The notes below the pieces were generated by a model that was not told the origin of the DNA, ran no database searches, and saw nothing but the letters and a program-made list of their open reading frames with translations. A stretch of DNA of 44,686 nucleotides from Gammaproteobacteria bacterium (GTDB taxonomy: Bacteria; Pseudomonadota; Gammaproteobacteria; Eutrophobiales; Eutrophobiaceae). The stretch covers positions 1 through 44,686 of the forward strand of contig JAJFKL010000048.1 of the NCBI GenBank assembly GCA_021773235.1, given 5' to 3'. Of the stretch, positions 22,439 through 41,570 are shown piece by piece (the stretch's first letter is position 1; the number at the start of each line of letters is the position of its first letter). The position numbers and the translations under genes are program-made.

Positions 22439-23365
22439 TTAATTTTCCATATAATTTAATGCCGGCAATAAACCTTCTGGCAAATCATGCACATTAGGAT
22501 GTAATGCATGAGCCATAATCTCCAAGCCATCAACCAGTCGCGGTCCAGGTCGACTAAAATAAGCATTGCCATCAGTTACGAAGACTTGGTTTTGATTTGA
22601 AGCTTTTAGATTAGACCATTCATTTTTTTTAGCAAGAATTGGCATATCTAAGAGCGTCCGTTCTAAATTGTAACCACAACATGCAATAAATAAAGTATCG
22701 GGATTAATTTTAACAACACTATCCCAAGAGAGAGTTGTTGAGGGTTTGTGTTTATTGCTTAACACGCTAATGCCTCCAGCGTACTCGATTAGTTCCGGCG
22801 TCCAATGCCCTGCATTAAACAGGGGATCTAACCACTCAAGAAAAACAAGTTCTGGTCTTGCACTTAATGCAATGTTCTTTTCAGTAATTTCAATAACAGA
22901 TTCAACACGCTTCTTGAGGTCGTCTACTGCTACTCTGGCTTGTTGCTTAAAGTTTGTTTCTTCTCCTACTAACAACAATGTATTGAACACATCTTCTAAC
23001 GTCATCGGTTCAAGATTAATTATTTGCGCATCACCAGGAAGTTCACAAACAGCATCTAGAACTTCATCTTCTGCCACAGCACATACTTCACATAGGGATT
23101 GCGTGATAATAAAGTCTGGCTTTAATTCTTTAAGCACTTTCATGTCTAGATGATAGATGGCCTTTTCTGTGCTTAATTGTTTTCGTACCGCGACATCAAT
23201 TTCCAAACTAGAGGCATCTTTCGGTATTAAACTCTCAGTGACATTAGGTAATTCTTTAACAAAAGAAGGATAGTCGCATTCATGACTCACACCAACGATG
23301 TACTCTCCCAAACCTACCTGGCAGATTATTTCTGTTGCGCTTGGTAATAAAGATACAATTCTCAT
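22439..23365 (-). CDS. Cobalamin-binding protein, BtuF-like, without signal peptide
   Basis: A COG0614-family corrinoid-binding protein of 308 residues. The family sequence RIVSLLPSATEI begins right at the N-terminus, followed by VGVSHECDYP, KPDFIITQSLCEVCAV and FLEWLDPLFNAGHW. In classical BtuF a signal peptide precedes this domain. Here none is visible, so the protein is either cytoplasmic or exported by another route. The gene lies in the B12 operon eight bases after the DUF71 gene and two bases before the adenosyltransferase gene. No BtuC or BtuD partner is encoded nearby. Binding of cobalamin or a precursor is likely; delivery to an ABC transporter is doubtful. Confidence 0.88.
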   Translation of the reverse strand: MRIVSLLPSATEIICQVGLGEYIVGVSHECDYPSFVKELPNVTESLIPKDASSLEIDVAVRKQLSTEKAIYHLDMKVLKELKPDFIITQSLCEVCAVAEDEVLDAVCELPGDAQIINLEPMTLEDVFNTLLLVGEETNFKQQARVAVDDLKKRVESVIEITEKNIALSARPELVFLEWLDPLFNAGHWTPELIEYAGGISVLSNKHKPSTTLSWDSVVKINPDTLFIACCGYNLERTLLDMPILAKKNEWSNLKASNQNQVFVTDGNAYFSRPGPRLVDGLEIMAHALHPNVHDLPEGLLPALNYMEN

Positions 23366-23373
23366 AAGAATAT

Positions 23374-24042
23374 TTAATTCGCTAACATCAGATCAGTGAA
23401 GATGAACCCATCTCGGTCAACTGTATCACCAACTGTAACGGGCACATCTGATGCAAACATTGGCCCGGAATAAACAAAGGTATGAAATTCACCGTTTTCA
23501 CCGCAGGGATCAACTTTATTATCTAGTAGGGATAAAAAGTTATTATCGAATTTTTTCCCTGCAAAAGTTATTGGAAGTTGTTTTGGATCTACGCATGTTA
23601 AGTAAGCCGATAAGCCGTTTGATAACATATCATTTGCAAGCTTGGTGGTATTCAACCCCCAAATTGGGAATAAAGGTGTTAAATTTGAATCTTTCATTAA
23701 ATCAATTCGATATTGGCGAACGTCTTCAAGAAATAAATCCCCATAAGCGACATGTGTTACATCATGCTCAATCCTCAGTTCATCAAAAGCAGTTCTTATA
23801 GCGTCTTCATAATCAGCATTTGAACATGGCCAAGGAAGTGGCACTTTAAAAAGTGGTAAACCGGCTGCTTCAGCTTGAGCGTCTAATAATTCTTCTCGGA
23901 CAGCATGCATAGCAACGCGGTTAAATTCAGAATTAATCGTCGTTAATAGACCAACAATCTCAAGATCTTCAGATTGCTGTAATTGATATAGAGTCCAGGC
24001 AGAATCTTTGCCTGAACTCCAGGAAAGCACAACACGCTTCAT
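23374..24042 (-). CDS. DUF71/COG2102 ATP-pyrophosphatase-like protein of the B12 group
   Basis: The 222-residue protein starts with the PP-loop motif LSWSSGKDSAW of the adenine nucleotide alpha-hydrolase fold. It has the COG2102 segments VAMHAVREELLDAQAEA, YGDLFLEDVRQYR and the C-terminal GENGEFHTFVYSGPMF, shared with diphthine-ammonia ligase Dph6. Bacteria lack diphthamide, and comparative genomics has proposed that one bacterial DUF71 subfamily works in B12 salvage. Its position within a cobalamin-riboswitch operon fits that proposal well. The exact reaction, presumably an ATP-dependent amidation or related step on a corrinoid, is unknown. Its ATG overlaps the stop of the upstream membrane-protein gene (ATGA). 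Confidence 0.88.
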   Translation of the reverse strand: MKRVVLSWSSGKDSAWTLYQLQQSEDLEIVGLLTTINSEFNRVAMHAVREELLDAQAEAAGLPLFKVPLPWPCSNADYEDAIRTAFDELRIEHDVTHVAYGDLFLEDVRQYRIDLMKDSNLTPLFPIWGLNTTKLANDMLSNGLSAYLTCVDPKQLPITFAGKKFDNNFLSLLDNKVDPCGENGEFHTFVYSGPMFASDVPVTVGDTVDRDGFIFTDLMLAN

Positions 24043-24575
24043 GCGATAGTTGGGTCAGCCTCTTTATTAACCCACTGTTTTACAGCTTCATACGTTCCGA
24101 ATAAAATAGCAGAATAGATTAAGTCACCTAACAATGAATGGCCATAAAAAGGGATTGCCCTTATAAAGCATAAAGTTAATCCTTCCATCGTTAAAGGATA
24201 ATACAAACCCGTAGCCCACAAGGTGAAATTGGATAACACAAACAAGATAGATGCAGAACCTACAGCTGCCCCACCTATTCTTAGAACGCTTCGCTTTTTA
24301 GATAAGACATAACGGCCTAATACAGCACTTAATGCAAAACTTGCATAAACAGAAAGCATGATAATCGGGTTATAAAAACCAATGAATATGTCACTGATGA
24401 GTAAAACAACAATGGGGATTAGCCATGCGCGACGATTCATCACATAGGCACCAGCAAAAAGTCCAAGAGCACCAACAGGGGTAAAGCCCATAGGATGTGG
24501 CAATAAACGCGTCACCACGACCATGATAATCAATAAATAAAAGAGCCCGTGTTTTTCAGTTAAAAATTTATTCAT
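24039..24575 (-). CDS. DUF6580 membrane protein, candidate corrinoid permease
   Basis: A 178-residue inner membrane protein with about five or six hydrophobic helices. It has the DUF6580-like motifs HPMGFTPVGALGLFAGAYV, LLISDIFIGFYNP and CFIRAIPFYGHSLLGDLIY. The overall pattern resembles substrate-binding S components of ECF transporters. No ECF ATPase or T component lies nearby. It sits directly behind btuB in the cobalamin-riboswitch operon, exactly where an inner-membrane B12 transporter is needed. The known solitary cobalamin transporter BtuM sets a precedent for S components that act alone. The function as corrinoid permease is inference from context; the family call is fairly sure. Confidence 0.82.
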   Translation of the reverse strand: MNKFLTEKHGLFYLLIIMVVVTRLLPHPMGFTPVGALGLFAGAYVMNRRAWLIPIVVLLISDIFIGFYNPIIMLSVYASFALSAVLGRYVLSKKRSVLRIGGAAVGSASILFVLSNFTLWATGLYYPLTMEGLTLCFIRAIPFYGHSLLGDLIYSAILFGTYEAVKQWVNKEADPTIA

Positions 24576-32938: not shown

Positions 32939-32970
32939 AATAAACATCATTGTTGATTGGCATTATTGGA

Positions 32971-32988
32971 TTCAGTTGTATAACTGAA
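32971..32988. terminator. Hairpin downstream of metH, possible terminator
   Basis: TTCAGTT and AACTGAA form a seven-base-pair stem with a four-base loop about 30 bases after the metH stop. No T-run follows, so termination is uncertain. Confidence 0.3.
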
Positions 32989-33096
32989 ATCAATTGACAC
33001 TGACCCTTTTGATTTGTTCAGGAACAACTGCTTTTAAGAAGGGGATTAGAAATTCCTTTTCCATAAAATATTTATACCGAAAAGGTCTATTTTAGT

Positions 33097-33825
33097 CTAT
33101 ATCAAACCTGTCAATTCTTGATGAAAGTCAGCAAAACTTTGACATCCATTATTAACACAATAATCTATATCATCTTTAGTGATTCTTGATGTAATTGATT
33201 CTACTTCACCAAGTTTTTTTGAATAAGAACCTCCAGTAATACTCATAATTTTATCGAGAAAAACTGATGATTTATAGACTACGGTTTCAATATCATCCTG
33301 ACTCAAATCTATACCCAGATTTTCATGAATTGATTCAACCGTTAATCTAGGGTTTAATTTAGGAAAGATACTTGGCATAGATAACCACCATGACTCAAGC
33401 TCCATAACAGAAAATAAAAGACTAACTGAATCGCTATGTTCCATCCCATCAACTATATCTTTACAGGCATTGATGATTGTGTCATTTACTTCAGAATCTA
33501 TTTTTCCACCAGATAACTTATGATAAGTTTCGCAATATAAATCACGTAGCCCTATTAATCGTTCATATCCTTTAGAAAAATAATTCTTTTCATTCTCCTT
33601 AATATAACTTAGTACTTTTTCATCATTCTCTACATTCAATATAAAGAAATGGATGCTAGCATCTTTGTTGAGATACTCGAACGGGACTTGATCATGCGAA
33701 CCAGCACGGAGATGCAGGCACTCAAAACTAATTAAGTTTGGATCAAACAAATGGAATAAGATATTACGTAAAAAGATCAATTCAGCTTGACCTTCTACAA
33801 ACACACCAACCTTCCTTACCGTCAT
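33097..33825 (-). CDS. DUF4276-like TOPRIM-type protein, putative defence nuclease
   Basis: The 242-residue protein opens with VRKVGVFVEGQAELIFLRNIL. This is the VEGxxE motif (Glu11) that begins DUF4276 and other TOPRIM-like proteins. Later acidic positions are in GLRDLY (Asp95) and VMELESWWLSM (Glu142, Glu144, Trp146), the latter matching the E-x-W segment of DUF4276. Proteins of this kind pair with SMC/OLD-like ATPases in phage-defence systems, where they are the nuclease or effector. Here the partner ATPase gene ends six bases upstream, so the two are co-translated. The nuclease activity is inferred. The DNA is clearly more AT-rich than the flanking metH, suggesting transfer. Confidence 0.72.
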   Translation of the reverse strand: MTVRKVGVFVEGQAELIFLRNILFHLFDPNLISFECLHLRAGSHDQVPFEYLNKDASIHFFILNVENDEKVLSYIKENEKNYFSKGYERLIGLRDLYCETYHKLSGGKIDSEVNDTIINACKDIVDGMEHSDSVSLLFSVMELESWWLSMPSIFPKLNPRLTVESIHENLGIDLSQDDIETVVYKSSVFLDKIMSITGGSYSKKLGEVESITSRITKDDIDYCVNNGCQSFADFHQELTGLI

Positions 33826-33831
33826 AAGAAA

Positions 33832-34965
33832 TTATTGGTTATAAAAATTAGAAGAGAAAAAATCAAAATTACTCAAACCAGTAATTTCAAACTTTTCAAA
33901 TATATCTTTTGAATTATGATAATTTAAAAAATGAGCACGGCTTCCTTCTCTTTGCATGACAGACCAATACTGTAGAGGGACATTATTCATAACAAATCTA
34001 TCATTTGTAGTCATGACCAATTGGATAGAAGATTTTTCGGCCATCTTAATAAGCGACTTAATTAATTTAGTAGATCTATCAAAATCTAAACCTTCTCCTA
34101 TGTCATCAATCAAAATTAAACTAGCTTCACTAAAATGCTCAGAATACTTTAATTGGATAAACAAAGAAATTGCTCTAAATAAACCTTGTGAAATCTCTTG
34201 TTGTTCTACGATATGAGAATGTCCTTTCTCTACAATGTATATACCTTCAGGTTGTTGTGGCAGCGTTTGCTCAACTATCATATTACTTATTGGAGCAACA
34301 CCCAATTCGGTAATATCATAACCAATTTGATTTATTTCATTTATGATTTCTTTTGTGAATTCATCACCATTTTTTTTGATTCCTCGTTTTAGAAATCCCA
34401 CTGCATTAGTTGTTTCCTTAACATTTAAATTATCTTGTCTCTTATTTTCTATAAATACGGCTACCCTATCTTTTCCTAATGAAGAACCAAAAGAATAGTG
34501 TCTTGTAGATTTTCCCCAATTATACAAAAGGTCAAAATAAGGATGCTGTATTGAATCACGTCTTACTACACTGGCTAATAAAGATTCGGGAACCTGAAAA
34601 TCAATCATTGGCCTATTTTCTAGTGCCTCGGCGAGTATCTTACCTTCTCCATTCTCTCTTCTATCAAGAACTACAGTGCCATCAATATCCAAGAACTCTT
34701 TTTCAACTTTCTGATCAGAATAATTCAAAATATATCTTACTGATTTCTCATTATCGAGAAAATCAACATCAAACTGACCAGAATATGCTAGCTTTCTCTC
34801 ATCACAAAGATAATTAGACAATGCTGCCAGAACATTCAGAGTGCGGCTTTTTCCCGTAGAGTTTTTACCAACAATTAAATTTATCTTCCCTAAAGAAAAA
34901 GAATTAAGATGCCAATCATTACCGCTCTGAGTGTGCTGACTATATGACAGTGAACTTAAAAACAT
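33832..34965 (-). CDS. OLD/SMC-like AAA ATPase, partner of the DUF4276-like protein
   Basis: An ABC-type ATPase of the AAA_15/AAA_21 kind. Starting at MFLSSLSYSQ gives 377 residues, and this ATG has an AGGAAG Shine-Dalgarno six bases upstream. A TTG seven codons earlier would put that site inside the gene. Walker A is GKNSTGKS (33-40), the signature-like segment is QQEISQGLFRAISLF, and Walker B is LILIDDIGEGLDF (Asp287, Asp288). The usual H-loop is TTNDRF, with no histidine. The middle (about 90-220) is the insertion typical of such proteins. Together with the downstream gene it resembles the ATPase-TOPRIM pairs of OLD, Gabija and PARIS systems, but I cannot assign it to a named one. Confidence 0.85.
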   Translation of the reverse strand: MFLSSLSYSQHTQSGNDWHLNSFSLGKINLIVGKNSTGKSRTLNVLAALSNYLCDERKLAYSGQFDVDFLDNEKSVRYILNYSDQKVEKEFLDIDGTVVLDRRENGEGKILAEALENRPMIDFQVPESLLASVVRRDSIQHPYFDLLYNWGKSTRHYSFGSSLGKDRVAVFIENKRQDNLNVKETTNAVGFLKRGIKKNGDEFTKEIINEINQIGYDITELGVAPISNMIVEQTLPQQPEGIYIVEKGHSHIVEQQEISQGLFRAISLFIQLKYSEHFSEASLILIDDIGEGLDFDRSTKLIKSLIKMAEKSSIQLVMTTNDRFVMNNVPLQYWSVMQREGSRAHFLNYHNSKDIFEKFEITGLSNFDFFSSNFYNQ

Positions 34966-35348
34966 AAGTATCTTCCTAATTATCAAGACGTATTCTAGCT
35001 ACAAATTATAACAACTGTTATGGAATAAACTGAAAAATAAAAGCAGTAATTATTAGATTAAATATGGGAATAACAAAAATTAACGAATAATTGATTGTAA
35101 ATGTGCCAAATTGAGACTGTATGGACCCCAATTCAACCCCAAGTGAACAGGGTTTTGGCACAGAGCATGCGCCATAAGTGACTGTTTTATTTAATAGTGA
35201 AAGATTTCAGTTCAGTCTCATAACACTGGGGTCGGTACTTAAGACAGGGTATATATATTAACAAAAAATATACCCATTTCAGATGATTCTAATACCTATG
35301 AAAAGCACTATTATTTTGAGTAAGAATTTGTTAAAGGATGGCGCGAAT
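34966..35348. other. AT-rich intergenic region between two accessory modules
   Basis: This gap separates the defence-like pair (minus) from the secreted metalloprotease gene (plus). It contains the left copy of the 51-bp direct repeat (35186-35236) but no convincing gene. Segments such as TGGACCCCAATTCAACCCC (35121-35139) look like worn mobile-element ends. The promoters of both neighbours must lie here. Confidence 0.5.
35186..35236 (+). repeat. Left copy of 51-bp imperfect direct repeat
   Basis: Aligned with 38782-38832 by eye, this segment differs at about six of 51 positions. The best-conserved part is TTCAGTTCAGTCTCATAAC followed by CTGG and GTCGGT. The two copies are in the same orientation and bracket 3.5 kb of unrelated accessory genes. 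Confidence 0.85.
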
Positions 35349-35966
35349 ATGAATTTCAAATATATATTAGCAATAACATTTTTATTAATTAGCAGTACTT
35401 CCTCTGCTGGCGGTCCTCCTGGTGGAATGCGGTGTCAATTAGGAGTATCACCACCTGGACAGCAATATTCCCCAGCCTATGATCAACCGCCTACACAATA
35501 TGCACTAAACGAGTTGAACACAATATACGGTGCCCTTTGCCCCCCACCTAATGGTTGCGGTACTTATTTTTTAACACTAAATAATACTGCTCCCAATGCG
35601 CTAGCAATGGCTGTAGGTCCAGGTCAAACAAAAATAGCTTATAATCCAAATTTTATGGGCCAAGTGTTTGCGCAATTTGGTCCAGGCGCTTCATTTGGAA
35701 TACTCGCACACGAATTTGGACATCATATTGACTTCCATACAACTCCTCCATGGATGAATAACGCTTGGTCACGTGAATTAAAAGCGGATTCATGGGCGGG
35801 GTGTGCATTAGCTAAAGTTGGGTTAGGACCAAATCAGATTCAAAACGCACTTTATGCTATTGCAGCTTATCCGTCTCCAACGCACCCTGGGTGGCCGCAA
35901 CGCATTCAGGCAGTACAGACAGGTTTTACAAGTTGTGGAGGTCAATGGTCAAATAATTTTAATTGA
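35349..35966 (+). CDS. Secreted M48-like zinc metalloprotease
   Basis: From the ATG at 35349 (AAGGA upstream) the protein has 205 residues with a clean signal peptide (FKYILAITFLLISSTSSA). The zinc motif HEFGHH is at residues 121-126, the probable third ligand is Glu143 in SRELKADSWAG, and the late motif THPGWPQRI (178-186) matches the HPxxxxR element of M48 peptidases. Six cysteines suit a periplasmic or secreted protein. The N-terminal part is rich in Pro and Gly. It is the first gene after the left 51-bp repeat. No partner or inhibitor is recognisable next to it, and the target is unknown. Confidence 0.8.
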   Translation: MNFKYILAITFLLISSTSSAGGPPGGMRCQLGVSPPGQQYSPAYDQPPTQYALNELNTIYGALCPPPNGCGTYFLTLNNTAPNALAMAVGPGQTKIAYNPNFMGQVFAQFGPGASFGILAHEFGHHIDFHTTPPWMNNAWSRELKADSWAGCALAKVGLGPNQIQNALYAIAAYPSPTHPGWPQRIQAVQTGFTSCGGQWSNNFN

Positions 35967-36119
35967 TTTTACAACTTAATTCGTTCGTTAGATAACATCT
36001 GCGGTAATTACATAGTCTGCTGAATGTCTCGTTAGATATGGTGACATTTTACCAGTTCACAATGAGCGCAACTTTAATACAGTAATACAATTCACCTTAA
36101 ATGTGTTGAGGGAGAAAAT

Positions 36120-36758
36120 ATGTTTTTAAATAATTTAAAGCATGGACGTATTTTTCCAAGAAGTTATATTTTAATAATTACAATTTCTGCTTTTTCAGGG
36201 ACAGTGTTAGCAATATCTGCCAATAACGTAGAAAGAGTTGCAAAAAGTCTCAAGTCATTTAGTTATAGAATTGGAGCTGAAGAAGTCAGCGTGGCATATG
36301 GTTATTTAACATTAAGAATTATTGATAGCGATTCGTCAGATTCAGATGACTGTTTTAAGTCGGTTGGGTGTGATTCTATTAAAAGAGATGCTGATGATAT
36401 AGAAATAAAATTATTAGATGAACGCATATATAAAAGTGATGGAAGTGAACTTCGAGTCAGAGATAGTGTAAAAGTTGATTTTTTAAGTTTGCCTGAACCA
36501 GAGGTGAAATATGATGAGAGTACAGTGCCTAATATATATAAGATTTGTTGGACTTTCTCAGAGGATTTGGTAAAGCGATCTTTTAAAGAGTTAACTGGAG
36601 GCTATTCAGAAAAAAAATACACTGACCATATTTGCTTTGTACAACCTAATAAATTTAAAAGACTTAGAGAGCTAAAACAAGCTCTGGAAGAACTTGCTGC
36701 CGAATATGATGGCACAGCAGAAACAGATGGAATTGATAGAACAATTCCGCGAGGTTGA
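36120..36758 (+). CDS. Unrecognised protein with an N-terminal membrane or signal segment
   Basis: I do not recognise this 212-residue protein. It starts with a strong GAGGGAG ribosome-binding site. A basic N-terminus (NNLKHGRIFPRS) is followed by one hydrophobic segment (YILIITISAFSGTVLAIS), which is either a signal peptide or an anchor. The rest is polar, with an acidic serine/aspartate patch (DSDSSDSDDC), three further cysteines and a predicted helical, charged C-terminus (KRLRELKQALEELAAEYDG). It is probably exported or periplasmic. It lies between the secreted metalloprotease and the alpha/beta hydrolase in the repeat-bracketed block. Confidence 0.65.
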   Translation: MFLNNLKHGRIFPRSYILIITISAFSGTVLAISANNVERVAKSLKSFSYRIGAEEVSVAYGYLTLRIIDSDSSDSDDCFKSVGCDSIKRDADDIEIKLLDERIYKSDGSELRVRDSVKVDFLSLPEPEVKYDESTVPNIYKICWTFSEDLVKRSFKELTGGYSEKKYTDHICFVQPNKFKRLRELKQALEELAAEYDGTAETDGIDRTIPRG

Positions 36759-36873
36759 TGAGGTGAATATTGCGAACAGCACTTTTGCCGACTATCAAAT
36801 ATTATTTTTTCAGTAAATACAATGGATGGTAATTCTCGCCTCATTGTTTCTGTCATTTAGGAAACTCATGTCC

Positions 36874-36977
36874 ACCAAATTAAATTAATTCCTGTTAGAT
36901 AAGGATGAGTCATTAAAAATATTGTATAAATTATGCATCCACCTATTACAGTAATGACATCATTCTTTACAGAAACA
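36874..36977 (-). pseudogene. Remnant of the 3' end of an nnrU-like gene
   Basis: On the minus strand this segment encodes VSVKNDVITVIGG and then an HPYLTGINLI ending. It closely follows the last 34 residues of the intact NnrU-family protein at 38988-39548. Nucleotide identity to 38984-39089 is roughly 75% with no gaps. Upstream of the VSV codons the similarity stops abruptly, and the sequence becomes the ribosome-binding site of the next plus-strand gene. It is a decayed paralogue, not a recent copy. Confidence 0.8.
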
Positions 36978-36990
36978 AAGGAGATGTCAC

Positions 36991-37947
36991 ATGTTAATTA
37001 TTACAAATAGAGTTATTAATAAATCAAACTTTAAGAATGGAACAGGAGATCATAAAGCCTTTGGTGATGGGGTTAATTCCAAAGGGCCAAATGAGGTTCG
37101 GCTTGCAACAGCCAATAAAGTTGGTGGAAAGTGGCAGGTAGAATTAGTAAAAGAACCATCAGTAATCACCGAAAAAAATATTCCGTCACAAAAGCAATTT
37201 TTGAAAATCCGAGAAAAATTAACTTCAGAAAAGAAAAATTGTGTATTTTTTGTTCACGGATTTAATCAGTCTTTTAAAAAAAACTTGGAGAAAAGTCTAG
37301 CACTGGAAGAAGAACATGGCGTTGAAGTCATAGCGTTTTCCTGGCCTTCTAACCCAGGTGGATTTAAAACTAAAGAATATCGCCATGCTAAGCGAACTGC
37401 TAGAGCATCTATGGGCGCTCTAGATTCTACACTGGAAAAGCTCTGTAGCTATCTAAAAGAGCCTTTTAATAGAGCGGCTTTAGAGGCTTGTAATATTAAG
37501 TTTTCGTTAATGACATACAGTCTCGGCAACTACTTATTTCAGAATTATATAGTAGATTCGGCTTATGAAAATGAAACTGCCTTATTTGATAATGTTGTTC
37601 TTTGTCAAGCTGATGTAGACAACAAAGGGCATGCATCTTGGGTTGATTTAATTGAAACCGGAAAAAGAGTTTATGTAACAATTAATGAAAATGATTGGGT
37701 TTTGAAGTGGTCAGATGCTAATTTCCAAAAAGACCGGCTTGGGAGAACGGCAAAGAATCTTAACTCTAGCAATGCTATCTATTTTGATTTTACTGATGGA
37801 AAGGGGGTTGGTAAGACACACGGTGTTTTTTATAAAAAAACAAACCCTGTGGTAAAGGAATTTTTTACAAAGGTTTTAAATGGAGGGCGAGGCGATGATG
37901 TGGAAGGTATGTCTTATCATGCTCGTTCAAACTCTTATAGATTTTAG
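36991..37947 (+). CDS. Alpha/beta hydrolase, DUF900 type
   Basis: A 318-residue cytoplasmic protein with an AAAGGAG site before its ATG. It has the DUF900-like pattern: CVFFVHGFNQSF (oxyanion strand), VEVIAFSWPSNPGG, and the nucleophile elbow MTYSLGNYLF with Ser177 in place of the common HSMGN. This is followed by YVTINENDWVL (acid region) and a late GKTHGVF that may supply the histidine. The family is esterase or lipase-like, but natural substrates are not known. There is no signal peptide. It lies directly after the nnrU remnant, which suggests it was inserted there. It may act with its neighbours, or may simply be a separate cargo gene. Confidence 0.82.
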   Translation: MLIITNRVINKSNFKNGTGDHKAFGDGVNSKGPNEVRLATANKVGGKWQVELVKEPSVITEKNIPSQKQFLKIREKLTSEKKNCVFFVHGFNQSFKKNLEKSLALEEEHGVEVIAFSWPSNPGGFKTKEYRHAKRTARASMGALDSTLEKLCSYLKEPFNRAALEACNIKFSLMTYSLGNYLFQNYIVDSAYENETALFDNVVLCQADVDNKGHASWVDLIETGKRVYVTINENDWVLKWSDANFQKDRLGRTAKNLNSSNAIYFDFTDGKGVGKTHGVFYKKTNPVVKEFFTKVLNGGRGDDVEGMSYHARSNSYRF

Positions 37948-38030
37948 GGTAAGATCAGACGCGCGAAAGTGCACCTCTTCTTGAGGCGTTACTTCCGCAT
38001 ATGGCCGTTGCCAGAAACTGGAGCTACTCA

Positions 38031-38708
38031 ATGAAAGATATTTTTGAAGCCATACTGAAATATATTCCAGCGTATCTAGATGAGTTGATCTCCTTGCTGG
38101 TTAAACCAAAATCCTTTATAGGCAGAAAGAACCGATACAATCTAGATTCCAATTTTATTAATGCGCTCGTATTTCTTGGGATTTCAATGTCATTGGCTTG
38201 GCTACTGCAAGCGCAACTAATTGGCAGCGATGACTTTATTAGTCAGTTTATCTCCGCGCTAGTTCGAGTGCTGTTCCTCGTTGTGCTGTACTCCGCCGTG
38301 TTGCGGTTAAGTTGGAGAATCGTTGGCGGAAAAGCGGGTCTCAAAGCATTCATGATTACATACGCTTATTATACGGGAGTCGTGATTATTATTATCGTTC
38401 TGTTCGCATTGGTCGGACAGGGGATAATCAAAACTTTCTCACCTGATTTATACGAAGTCATAAGAGCAAATGATCCAGTGGCGATTTCTGATGCGGCACC
38501 ATTTAACGATCAATGGTTCGTGACAGGGTTTGTTATGACTGTAGTTGGAATCGTGGCGGCTTCCATTTGGGCATTTGTAGGGTGGGGCGCGTACCGGCAA
38601 TTAAACAATTTGACGAAAAGAAAGTCGTTCATCGCAATGTTTCTTACTGGGCTTTTTTCTATTCCGATACAAGTGGCTATGTTTTTCATTACTAAAGCTA
38701 CATCTTAG
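38031..38708 (+). CDS. Yip1-domain-like multi-spanning membrane protein
   Basis: The ATG at 38031 follows a GGAG site by seven bases. The longer frame from 38001 adds ten residues without a ribosome-binding site. The 225-residue protein has about five membrane helices (segments starting FINALVFLGISMSLAWLL, VLFLVVLYSAVLRLSW, FMITYAYYTGVVIIIIV, FVTGFVMTVVGIVAASIW and FIAMFLTGLFSIPIQVAM). Its N-terminus resembles Yip1-family proteins (LVKPKSFIGRKN). Function is unknown. It is the last gene of the block, and the right 51-bp repeat lies just behind it. Confidence 0.75.
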   Translation: MKDIFEAILKYIPAYLDELISLLVKPKSFIGRKNRYNLDSNFINALVFLGISMSLAWLLQAQLIGSDDFISQFISALVRVLFLVVLYSAVLRLSWRIVGGKAGLKAFMITYAYYTGVVIIIIVLFALVGQGIIKTFSPDLYEVIRANDPVAISDAAPFNDQWFVTGFVMTVVGIVAASIWAFVGWGAYRQLNNLTKRKSFIAMFLTGLFSIPIQVAMFFITKATS

Positions 38709-38781
38709 TGGTACTAGAGCAAGGATGGAACCATCTAATTAATCGCTGCAATGGATAAAATATCTGCGTTTTTTCATCCCG

Positions 38782-38832
38782 TTTAGTTAATAGTGAATTA
38801 ATTCAGTTCAGTCTCATAACGCTGGTGTCGGT
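38782..38832 (+). repeat. Right copy of 51-bp imperfect direct repeat
   Basis: Same orientation as the copy at 35186-35236, with about 45 of 51 positions identical. It lies about 75 bases after the Yip1-like gene and just before another repeat type. Confidence 0.85.
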
Positions 38833-38859
38833 TGTTCAATTCTTCGGTAATTGGTCCTC

Positions 38860-38907
38860 GGCTTTGGCTTCCTGTGTCGTTCTACCTCCTCTATCGCTAG
38901 AGTCGTG
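38860..38907 (+). repeat. Degenerate copy of the TCGTTCTACCTCCT intergenic repeat
   Basis: It contains CCTGTGTCGTTCTACCTCCT, closely matching the fuller copies at 38922-38982 and 41490-41570, but it lacks the GCATCCATGC hairpin. The second half, TCTATCGCTAGAGTCGTG, differs. Confidence 0.65.
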
Positions 38908-38921
38908 CATTACTTCTATCA

Positions 38922-38982
38922 CCTCGACTTTGTCTCCTGCGTCGTTCTACCTCCTGCATCCATGCAGGCCGACCTATAGCCA
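38922..38982 (+). repeat. Intergenic repeat with CCTGCATCCATGCAGG hairpin
   Basis: It shares about 42 of 45 bases with 41490-41534 (CCTCGACT, TGTCTCCTG, TCGTTCTACCTCC and TGCATCCATGCAG). The palindrome CCTGCATCCATGCAGG forms a seven-base-pair stem. It lies between the right 51-bp repeat and the nnrU stop, and is probably a dispersed, non-coding element. Confidence 0.75.
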
Positions 38983-38987
38983 CTAAT

Positions 38988-39548
38988 TTAAATCAATTTA
39001 ATCCCTGATAGATAAGGATGTGCGATTAATAAGACTGCATATAAAACACAGCCACCTATTACGGTAATAACATCATTCTTTACTGAAACTAATTCTGGCT
39101 TTATCCATTCACCTTCACGTCGACTGATCAGGATCATTTCAATAATTGCCCAAACACCGAGCCAGCTGAATAATATTAATGAGCGATTATCACCATTAGC
39201 AAATAGATGACCAATGCTCCACAGTACTAACCCTGTTAGTTGAAGGTGACGCAGGACTCGTTTTATGTTTGTTGCTCTACGTGCAGCAACAAACAGAATG
39301 AATGTTAGAAGAACTAGAAAAAATGTGACATGTCTGCCCCAGCTTTGTGGATTATAAATATCAATAGGATCTATACTGCGCCAACCAAGCACTATTAGAA
39401 CTACTGATGTGATAATCAAGATTGCGAATAAGCCTTTGTATGGCCCGATTCCAATTTTGTTTATAACTAATCCCCTTGTGCACTTTGCCACTGAAGGGAA
39501 AAAGTGGATAAGCGTCCACAGCAAAAGACCAAGAATTAGTAAGTGCAT
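38988..39548 (-). CDS. nnrU: NnrU-family membrane protein
   Basis: A 186-residue inner membrane protein of the NnrU family, named from denitrification regulons and related to the isoprenoid-modifying methyltransferase-like membrane fold. Five or six helices are visible, with the family segments GPYKGLFAILIITSVVLIVLG, WGRHVTFFLVLLTFILFVA, LQLTGLVLWSIGHLFANGD and the ending HPYLSGIKLI. AGGAGAG lies seven bases before the ATG. The biochemical role is not known. A decayed copy of its last 34 codons lies 2 kb upstream at 36874-36977. It is on the same strand as the LysR gene. Confidence 0.88.
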   Translation of the reverse strand: MHLLILGLLLWTLIHFFPSVAKCTRGLVINKIGIGPYKGLFAILIITSVVLIVLGWRSIDPIDIYNPQSWGRHVTFFLVLLTFILFVAARRATNIKRVLRHLQLTGLVLWSIGHLFANGDNRSLILFSWLGVWAIIEMILISRREGEWIKPELVSVKNDVITVIGGCVLYAVLLIAHPYLSGIKLI

Positions 39549-39626
39549 AATGTTCTCTCCTCTTTTAACTTTTAATTATATTTACTAACGAACTTAAAAA
39601 TATCTCAGCTCAATTCTTTGAATACT

Positions 39627-40520
39627 TTATTCTTGTCCTTTTAATCTCTCACTATCTTCTTCAAATGCCTTGCCTAGAAAATCATATACCGTTCTTATTC
39701 TTGCGCTGCTGTTAATTTCTGCATGAGTAACTAGCCAAATTTCCCGTGCATGATTCAGTTTATTATTTAACACGCGATGGAGATTAGGGTGTTGGTCAGC
39801 TATAAAACAACATAGTGCACCACAGCCTAAACCTGCGTTGGTTGCTTCGACGATTTCCATGTGGCTATTTGAACGATGTCGTATGTGGTCTTCATGAAAT
39901 AATGATTCTAGTTTTTTAATTTCCGAAACTGGCCCTGTTTCCATCTCAAAGCCCACATGGTAATGCTGTTTTAGATCTTGTGGCTTCTCAGGCACACCAT
40001 GTTTATCCAGATAGGCTTGGCTTGCATAGAGACCAAAATTCAGCTCCCCTACTTTGCGACATATTAAATCAGCTTGATCCGGACGTGCGAGTCTAACGGC
40101 AATGTCTGCCTCTCTGCGTAATAGATTAACGTTTTGGTTATCGATATGTACTTCTATTAGAAGCTGAGGAAATTCATCATGAAATTCACCAAGTTTCTTT
40201 GGTAGCCAATAAATGCCGAGATCTTCAATCAATGAGATCCGTACATTACCCTGTAATTGCTGATTCGCACCGGTAGCTGCCCGCTCTATCGCGAGGGCTT
40301 CTTCTCCCATGCTTTTAGCATGCTCTAAAATACTTTCACCGACTTTAGTCAGTGAGAGTCCTTGCGCAGTTCTATTGAACAACACCGCCCCAAGTCTATG
40401 CTCCAACTGCTCTATTCTTCGCCCGACAGTCGGCTGACTCACGTTCAGACGACGTGCTGCTGCAGAGAGGCTACCTGTCTCTGCGACTGCCACCACATCT
40501 TGTAAAGCTCGCCAATCCAT
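39627..40520 (-). CDS. LysR-family transcriptional regulator
   Basis: A 297-residue LysR regulator. The helix-turn-helix is at the N-terminus (MDWRALQDVVAVAETGSLSA, ARRLNVSQPTVGRRIEQLE), followed by the effector-binding domain (VRISLIEDLGIYWLPKKL, DIAVRLARP, GLYASQAYLDKHG). The ATG at 40520 is preferred over an upstream TTG because AGGGTGG lies 11 bases before it and family proteins begin at this point. It is divergent from the small secreted-protein gene at 40638 and probably controls that gene and itself. The inducer is not predictable. Confidence 0.93.
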   Translation of the reverse strand: MDWRALQDVVAVAETGSLSAAARRLNVSQPTVGRRIEQLEHRLGAVLFNRTAQGLSLTKVGESILEHAKSMGEEALAIERAATGANQQLQGNVRISLIEDLGIYWLPKKLGEFHDEFPQLLIEVHIDNQNVNLLRREADIAVRLARPDQADLICRKVGELNFGLYASQAYLDKHGVPEKPQDLKQHYHVGFEMETGPVSEIKKLESLFHEDHIRHRSNSHMEIVEATNAGLGCGALCCFIADQHPNLHRVLNNKLNHAREIWLVTHAEINSSARIRTVYDFLGKAFEEDSERLKGQE

Positions 40521-40555
40521 ACTCAATAAAACCACCCTATTCAAATATGTATACC

Positions 40556-40573
40556 AGTTAAACGGTATTAACT
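40556..40573. promoter_or_regulatory. Candidate LysR operator palindrome
   Basis: AGTTAAACGGTATTAACT has six-base arms AGTTAA and TTAACT around a six-base centre, and fits the T-N11-A pattern of LysR sites. It lies between the LysR start and the divergent gene, directly upstream of the minus 35 box at 40575. ATATGTATA also occurs twice nearby (40546 and about 40586). Confidence 0.55.
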
Positions 40574-40574
40574 A

Positions 40575-40602
40575 ATGACTATTTATATATGTATAGCATA
40601 AT
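40575..40602 (+). promoter_or_regulatory. Candidate promoter of the gene at 40638
   Basis: ATGACT (40575-40580) and CATAAT (40597-40602) are 16 bases apart. The pair lies directly downstream of the LysR palindrome, a layout usual for LysR-activated promoters. Confidence 0.45.
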
Positions 40603-40637
40603 TACACCATAAATTCACTCAGCAGAGGTAAAGCGAC

Positions 40638-41132
40638 ATGAAACAGGTAATAGCACAGATCGGTTTGGTGATGATTCTGGCCTTATCGTCTTCAAATGCA
40701 GTTATGGCAGACCAGAGTATTATCGGCTGGTTTTCTTCTCCAACATCCAACCTTCTGAACAGGAGCAGTTTAGAGTTGGCTACTAATCATGTCATTCGTG
40801 GTATTCGATTTGCACATCAGTCGCTAGAGAGAGGTTTAAATCCAATGGATGAGCTTATAGCTAACCATAATTTATGTATGGGCTATTTAGCATTAGATAA
40901 AATTGATATCTCTGCACAATATTGCGTACGCACATTTAAGCTTGCACAAGGACCCTATCGTATTGAAAAGATTCGAGGCGCTTACCGATTGCAAGAAAGT
41001 AATACTATTGGTGATTCTAAATCGACATTAACGCCGATGTTAATGGTGGCGAGTAATATATTGCAGCAAAATCCACAGACACGTCTTACAATGTTGATTG
41101 ATCAGCAACAGAACAAACAGCGTTTTAACTAA
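40638..41132 (+). CDS. Small secreted protein, possibly TPR-like, divergent from LysR
   Basis: I do not recognise this 164-residue protein. It has a signal peptide (VIAQIGLVMILALSSSNAVMA) and a helical mature part. Two segments look like helix pairs of a tetratricopeptide-type repeat (ELATNHVIRGIRFAHQSLER and ANHNLCMGYLALDKIDISAQYC). An AGAGG sequence lies 11 bases before the ATG. It faces the LysR gene across a 117-bp region holding an operator-like palindrome, so LysR regulation is likely. It is probably periplasmic. Confidence 0.7.
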   Translation: MKQVIAQIGLVMILALSSSNAVMADQSIIGWFSSPTSNLLNRSSLELATNHVIRGIRFAHQSLERGLNPMDELIANHNLCMGYLALDKIDISAQYCVRTFKLAQGPYRIEKIRGAYRLQESNTIGDSKSTLTPMLMVASNILQQNPQTRLTMLIDQQQNKQRFN

Positions 41133-41489: not shown

Positions 41490-41570
41490 CCTCGACTCTG
41501 TCTCCTGATTCGTTCTACCTCCTGCATCCATGCAGTCGTGTCCTATCGCGACATACAGGCCCTCCATGGC
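41490..41570 (+). repeat. Second full copy of the hairpin-bearing intergenic repeat
   Basis: The first 45 bases match 38922-38966 at about 42 positions, including TCGTTCTACCTCCTGCATCC. It is followed by TCGTGTCCTATCGCGACATA and a CCATGG-containing end. Confidence 0.75.

Follow-up and report, generated by a model that had tools for sequence, protein, structure and literature searches.

PARIS, AbiL, Gabija and some retrons couple an ABC ATPase to a nuclease, and how the ATPase restrains the nuclease is an active question. PARIS is triggered by phage anti-restriction proteins and its AriB nuclease cleaves tRNA-Lys, while the PtuA ATPase of Septu and retrons works with the HNH nuclease PtuB and not with a TOPRIM protein. 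Here we describe a gene pair encoding an OLD/SMC-type ATPase and a DUF4276-like TOPRIM protein in a stretch of 44,686 nucleotides (the window hereafter; contig JAJFKL010000048.1 of assembly GCA_021773235.1, a gammaproteobacterium of the Eutrophobiaceae). We consider it likely that the two genes form an anti-phage module of the split OLD type that has spread by horizontal transfer, a candidate known from computation alone.

The ATPase and its DUF4276-like partner

Both open reading frames (ORFs) are present on the minus strand, with the ATPase gene first and the partner gene 6 bp after it. A preliminary description, made from the sequence without database searches, had taken the two for a likely phage-defence pair of an ATPase and a TOPRIM protein that fits no named type, a proposal that the fold, linkage, residues and distribution reported below support. 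The motifs it named can be read in the ORFs, namely Walker A GKNSTGKS, Walker B LILIDDIGEG and an H-loop without His (TTND) in the ATPase, and an N-terminal VFVEGQAE and a motif 2 GLRDLY in the partner. The pair is also more AT-rich than the neighboring metH, as had been claimed, with a GC content of 31-33% against 43-46%.

33832..34965 (-), OLD/SMC-type ATPase, first gene of the pair, from the conserved ATG; an upstream TTG at 34986 is an alternative start
33097..33825 (-), DUF4276-like TOPRIM protein, presumed nuclease, second gene; ATG start, 242 aa
ATPase motifs: Walker A 40-47; signature SQG 266-268; Walker B IDD 293-295; GEGLD 297-301
ATPase motifs, C-terminal part: H-loop position N328; GLSNFDFF 370-377

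ATPase residues are counted from the TTG, from which the ORF spans 33832-34986 and encodes 384 aa. The protein scores above the Pfam cut-off for AAA_21 (E 4e-10), its top PADLOC models are AbiLi (4.8e-18) and AriA (3.2e-16), and it has an ABC/SMC head fold whose nearest match is PtuA, followed by Rad50/SMC and AriA. In every aligned member of the family, the Walker B Glu is replaced by Asp and the H-loop His by Asn. When PADLOC was run over 35 family ATPases at E ≤ 1e-10, AriA and AbiLi each matched 35/35 (best AbiLi E, 1e-22) and HEC-01A at most 4/35.

The Walker B position was Glu in 54/54 comparator ATPases, which were picked solely by length and Walker A from 60 loci; six of these loci yielded no ORF with the required length and Walker A, and rows L092 and L117, at least, represent one gene. 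The comparator groups are named for the model that fetched them and may not be true AbiL or PARIS. Among the DUF4276-fetched ATPases (n = 25), 18 combine DEPELGLH with TQS and the other 7 carry an H-loop H, and the AbiLi-fetched ones (n = 15) have DE in Walker B and H in the H-loop. The family ATPases, with IDDxxEGLD and ND, differ from all 25 DUF4276-fetched comparators at positions 295 and 328. They form one clade apart from both groups (Shimodaira-Hasegawa-like approximate likelihood ratio test [SH-aLRT] 99) in a quick tree without bootstrap that carries a long-branch warning, and since the tree comparators were selected by patterns containing the Walker B Glu, the clade holds against that selection only.

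DUF4276 (PF14103) is the sole Pfam family to match the window partner at E ≤ 1, with 19.4 bits against a gathering cut-off of 30.2 (E 0.0014). Although the window protein falls below that cut-off, 34 of 36 partner family members match DUF4276 at E ≤ 0.01, and the partner profile aligned to 13 canonical DUF4276 proteins with 98.2% probability, so that the preliminary label of DUF4276-like stands and the partner is, by profile comparison, homologous to DUF4276. Its predicted structure (mean predicted local distance difference test score [pLDDT] 96.3) matches TOPRIM proteins, in VIA and by a modest margin, which speaks against the possibility, raised in the preliminary description, of a partner without a TOPRIM fold. 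The presumed catalytic residues E11, D95, E142, E144 and K203 are found in 36/36 members and E15 in 35/36. Motif 2 has a single Asp, as first noticed in the window protein: D95 is invariant, and Y or F replaces the second Asp in 36/36. The active site of BpOLD comprises E400/E404, D455, T506/E508 and K562, according to PMC6755086, and the partner residues E11/E15, D95, E142/E144 and K203 appear to parallel this set in order and spacing. The top PADLOC model for the window partner is HEC-01B (E 0.024), and HEC-01B models match up to 32/36 partners at E ≤ 0.01. The AbiLii model matches one of the 36 (E 0.0019), which is not the window protein, and DUF4435 is not among the 4 Pfam families matched by any of the 36 partners at E ≤ 0.01.

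Linkage, distribution and genomic context

Relatives of the pair were collected from three sources. A tblastn search of plasmid records gave one pair from Bacteroides finegoldii and one from Paraburkholderia phenoliruptrix, each with adjacent genes; profile scans of species genomes gave 32 further loci; and viral contigs gave 7 by the ATPase query and 9 loci by the partner query, six of them on contigs already known, for 10 distinct contigs. ORFs were searched in 46 sequences and three copies of the window pair were left out, leaving 43 loci with the window included. Exactly one ORF per gene was found in 36 of the 43, both near full length in 33 of these, and the ATPase preceded the partner in 36/36, contrary to the possibility, also raised beforehand, that homologues are always found apart in conserved core loci. 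The genes overlap in 23 of these loci, are 1-16 bp apart in 12 and 197 bp apart in one, because its partner ORF starts late. Thus, the linkage is beyond chance, and the two genes are tied in a fixed order across phyla. Split ORFs were found in L017, L020, L021 and L030, affecting one or both genes (L020 lies on a Flavobacterium covae chromosome), which suggests inactivation or sequencing errors, and L029 and L045 are cut off by contig ends.

The partner was found in 0/95 relatives besides the window's own genome, and the ATPase matched in 1/368 other genomes of the class (E ≤ 1e-20) and 3/397 other genomes of the phylum (E ≤ 1e-30). Of the three phylum matches, G538 does not belong to the family, as its ATPase retains the usual Glu in Walker B and His in the H-loop. 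The tree mixes phyla: the window ATPase groups with rows from Spirochaetota (three) and Dysgonomonadaceae (one), at an SH-aLRT of 92, not starred. Such mixing and the sparse occurrence are typical of a gene pair that is mobile. The L019 copy, from a metagenome-assembled genome labelled Clostridia, falls among Bacteroidota rows beside the B. finegoldii copy and may reflect transfer or a mis-binned contig.

Several homologues sit among defense or phage genes in the context list of 41 loci besides the window. The L031 pair sits in a run of overlapping genes, with an Eco57I methylase and then an AAA_13 (RloC/PrrC-like) gene on one side and a YhcG nuclease and then a T5orf172/ResIII protein on the other; in L032, the pair stands between an Eco57I/TaqI_C methylase and AAA_13. 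A fused AAA_21-DUF4435 gene lies about 175 bp upstream of the pair in L018, a DEAD helicase downstream in L034, and an AAA_21 gene, whose companion is without any Pfam match, upstream in L014; N6/N4 methylases were assigned to L021 and L022 by inspection. Both L038 and L043 have integrases close to the pair, L041 has a phage capsid gene 2.6 kb away, and D12 methylases precede the pair in L040 and, by inspection, L042. On L162, a viral contig of 33 kb added to these loci, the pair follows a repressor-like gene and is near CII-like and replication-like genes (names given by inspection).

Other copies lie in polysaccharide loci. In L003 (Bacteroides finegoldii), a capsule locus reads tyrosine kinase, pair, sugar transporter; at 22865-24428 the same locus has a further AAA ATPase gene (AAA_15/AAA_21), which overlaps that of a 166-aa protein with zero Pfam matches at E ≤ 0.001. 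In L025 (6873-10594), the pair stands between an rmlB-like (epimerase/dehydratase) and an rmlA-like (nucleotidyltransferase) gene, separated from them by 2 and 7 bp, a spacing that would suit co-transcription with these sugar-nucleotide genes. A DegT aminotransferase adjoins the pair in L011, and glf is about 1.5 kb away in L019. We tallied 131 of 133 neighbors (ORFs ≥ 150 aa, at most two per side, within 3.5 kb, window excluded); the two left out were a hypothetical protein of L004, for its length, and an ORF of L036 that runs antisense to the pair. The largest Pfam neighbor families among the 25 listed of 116 were ABC_tran (7) and AAA_21 (7), and the largest PADLOC families among the 25 listed of 159 were mad3 (8) and MTase_II (3). 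Since the tally has no matched control, we claim association in the loci named above and not enrichment.

In the window, the pair follows metH in a stretch that two congeners lack:

32940..41093 (.), stretch that includes the pair, lacking in the congener whose metH is most similar
35283-35966 (+), M48-like protein (Pfam); absent from 11/11 congeners searched
36120-36758 (+), unknown protein, accessory gene of the stretch
36991-37947 (+), DUF900 hydrolase (Pfam); absent from 11/11 congeners searched
35186..35236 and 38782-38832 (+), 51-nt direct repeat, copies 88% identical; possible recombination scar

In L060, whose metH is the most similar among the congeners (96% amino acid identity), the counterparts of window positions 32939 and 41094 are 115 bp apart; the corresponding distance in another congener, L062, is about 206 bp. 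As two congeners are without the stretch, the pair belongs to about 8.15 kb that was probably inserted after metH, although a deletion in the congener may be the explanation instead. The pair had been described as standing alone between its neighbors; metH is indeed beside it, but it is not quite alone, as this strain-specific stretch holds other accessory genes. By inspection, different genes follow metH in other congeners, making the site variable.

The 51-nt repeat may be a recombination site, and a stretch that looks similar by eye lies after metH in the insert-free congener; a reading of the repeat as a tRNA-Met remnant gained no support, as neither ARAGORN nor Rfam detected a tRNA at this place. 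At 38922-38967 and 41490-41535 lies a 46-nt element that includes a short palindrome; it has 14 further matches elsewhere in the genome and is apparently a dispersed intergenic repeat. A 103-nt direct repeat (36877-36979 and 38990-39092, 80% identical) has one copy overlapping the 3′ end of a minus-strand ORF at 38988-39548. In congener G009 (L061 10288-10380), a partial second metH 3′ end lies just downstream of metH, as integrating elements can leave.

Proposed mechanism and rival explanations

The TOPRIM fold, the conserved residues, the linkage and order, the patchy distribution, the defense and phage context and the family-wide Walker B and H-loop changes make phage defense the probable function of the pair, and it is probably an unnamed relative of self-sacrifice defense systems such as PARIS and AbiL. 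The partner is probably a small metal-dependent nuclease, and we lean towards a model in which the ATPase restrains it. In agreement with such a model, AAA partners are reported to neutralize related OLD_TOPRIM toxins (PMC10440598). The ATPase would oligomerize, and its ATP-bound form would hold the nuclease inactive in a complex. Judging from the residues, we somewhat favor weak hydrolysis: because both the Walker B Glu and the H-loop His are changed in every aligned member, hydrolysis would be slow or absent, with ATP probably still bound, and a clamp that binds ATP with little hydrolysis would act as a nucleotide-gated lock and not as a motor. The lock could be opened by a phage product or by a drop in nucleotide, and the freed TOPRIM enzyme would cut nucleic acid by two-metal catalysis, its substrate being perhaps tRNA or other RNA, as for AriB, or DNA, as for OLD and GajA. 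Such cutting would stop the infected cell.

Several results weigh against this interpretation. Foldseek alone gave no PDB match for the partner at E ≤ 0.001, and the TOPRIM call by VIA stands at 8.9-9.8 against 7.2 for unrelated folds. The equivalence with BpOLD is one of order, spacing and fold and not of residue-level superposition, and PADLOC partner models gave zero matches to the window partner at E ≤ 0.01. Comparing the partner profile with the DUF4435 part of the fused gene in L018 by hhalign found nothing (1.3%). The viral contig L037 has an ATPase without a recognizable partner, and numerous homologues lie beside housekeeping genes (proS-like, pheA-like, dnaK-like; by inspection) or polysaccharide genes.

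Two overlapping mobile genes with some broken copies would also suit a toxin-antitoxin or addiction module, in which the ATPase neutralizes a TOPRIM toxin, post-segregational killing keeps the pair and defense is incidental. Related AAA/TOPRIM pairs are reported to have passed toxicity-neutralization tests (PMC10440598). However, linkage to restriction-modification and RloC-like genes in L031 and L032 fits defense better. The family ATPase is also oversized beside typical antitoxins, which are much smaller. We consider an addiction module improbable, although this reading and defense overlap. Even less probable is that the pair serves nucleic-acid housekeeping or regulation, the kind of role argued for archaeal Cran1, perhaps with a link to envelope polysaccharide genes: the copies in L025, L003, L011 and L019 would agree with it, and an OLD ATPase without antiviral effect is described in PMC12796447, but the partner is missing in all 95 relatives and pairs occur in phage contigs and restriction-modification clusters. 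Moreover, polysaccharide loci are variable hot spots themselves.

Whether the pair is a divergent HEC-01 member that needs no separate name is a filing question, compatible with a role in defense. Such membership is possible, though doubtful: the HEC-01B matches and the profile similarity to canonical DUF4276 speak for it, and the few HEC-01A matches, the separate ATPase clade (within its selection of comparators) and the changes at 295 and 328 speak against it. A more far-reaching idea seems unlikely, namely that the family is a separate split OLD immunity class in which the sensor ATPase gave up efficient hydrolysis for an ATP-level lock, with the Bacteroidota module wired into capsule or O-antigen operons and defense switched on with a particular surface coat; a literature search joining capsule, TOPRIM and Bacteroides found nothing.

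If the family defends as proposed, sensing and release would not need efficient hydrolysis. With both hydrolysis residues swapped and the Walker A and signature kept, its ATPases are a natural separation-of-function experiment. As an unnamed defense candidate, the family is searchable by IDDxxEGLD, ND at the H-loop and GLxNFDFF in the ATPase, and annotators can look for FVEGxxE, GLRDxY and EVEAW in the partner.

Comparison with named systems

Our literature searches found no paper on HEC-01 together with PADLOC and nothing on DUF4276 alone. HEC-01, the ATPase and DUF4276 candidate of PADLOC, overlaps with the pair in its partner models, and an ATPase adjoins DUF4276 in the comparator loci, but those ATPases have DEPELGLH with TQS or an H-loop H in a separate clade, and AriA and AbiLi fit the family better than HEC-01A. 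In OLD classes 1-3 and in GajA of Gabija, ATPase and nuclease are one chain, whereas two ORFs are found here; the partner shares the TOPRIM fold of the OLD nuclease, with D-x-Y/F in place of the DxD of OLD and GajA. Gabija has the GajB helicase beside GajA, and no helicase family was found in the neighbors scanned at 35283-38708, with metH on the other side. PtuA is the nearest fold to the family ATPase, but the partner here is TOPRIM instead of HNH. As in PARIS (AriA and AriB, class 4 OLD), an AriA-like ATPase is encoded separately beside a TOPRIM gene, but AriB is DUF4435 and the partner here is DUF4276-like, and the family ATPase has DD in Walker B and N in the H-loop. For AbiL (AbiLi and AbiLii), the AbiLi model matches all 35 family ATPases, whereas the AbiLii model (for an AbiLii/RloB-like partner) matches one partner of 36 and the AbiLi-fetched ATPases, with DE and H, belong to another clade. 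Taken together, the pair lacks the DUF4435 protein of PARIS and the AbiLii-like protein of AbiL and fits HEC-01A poorly, and we therefore file it as an unnamed split ATPase-TOPRIM subfamily.
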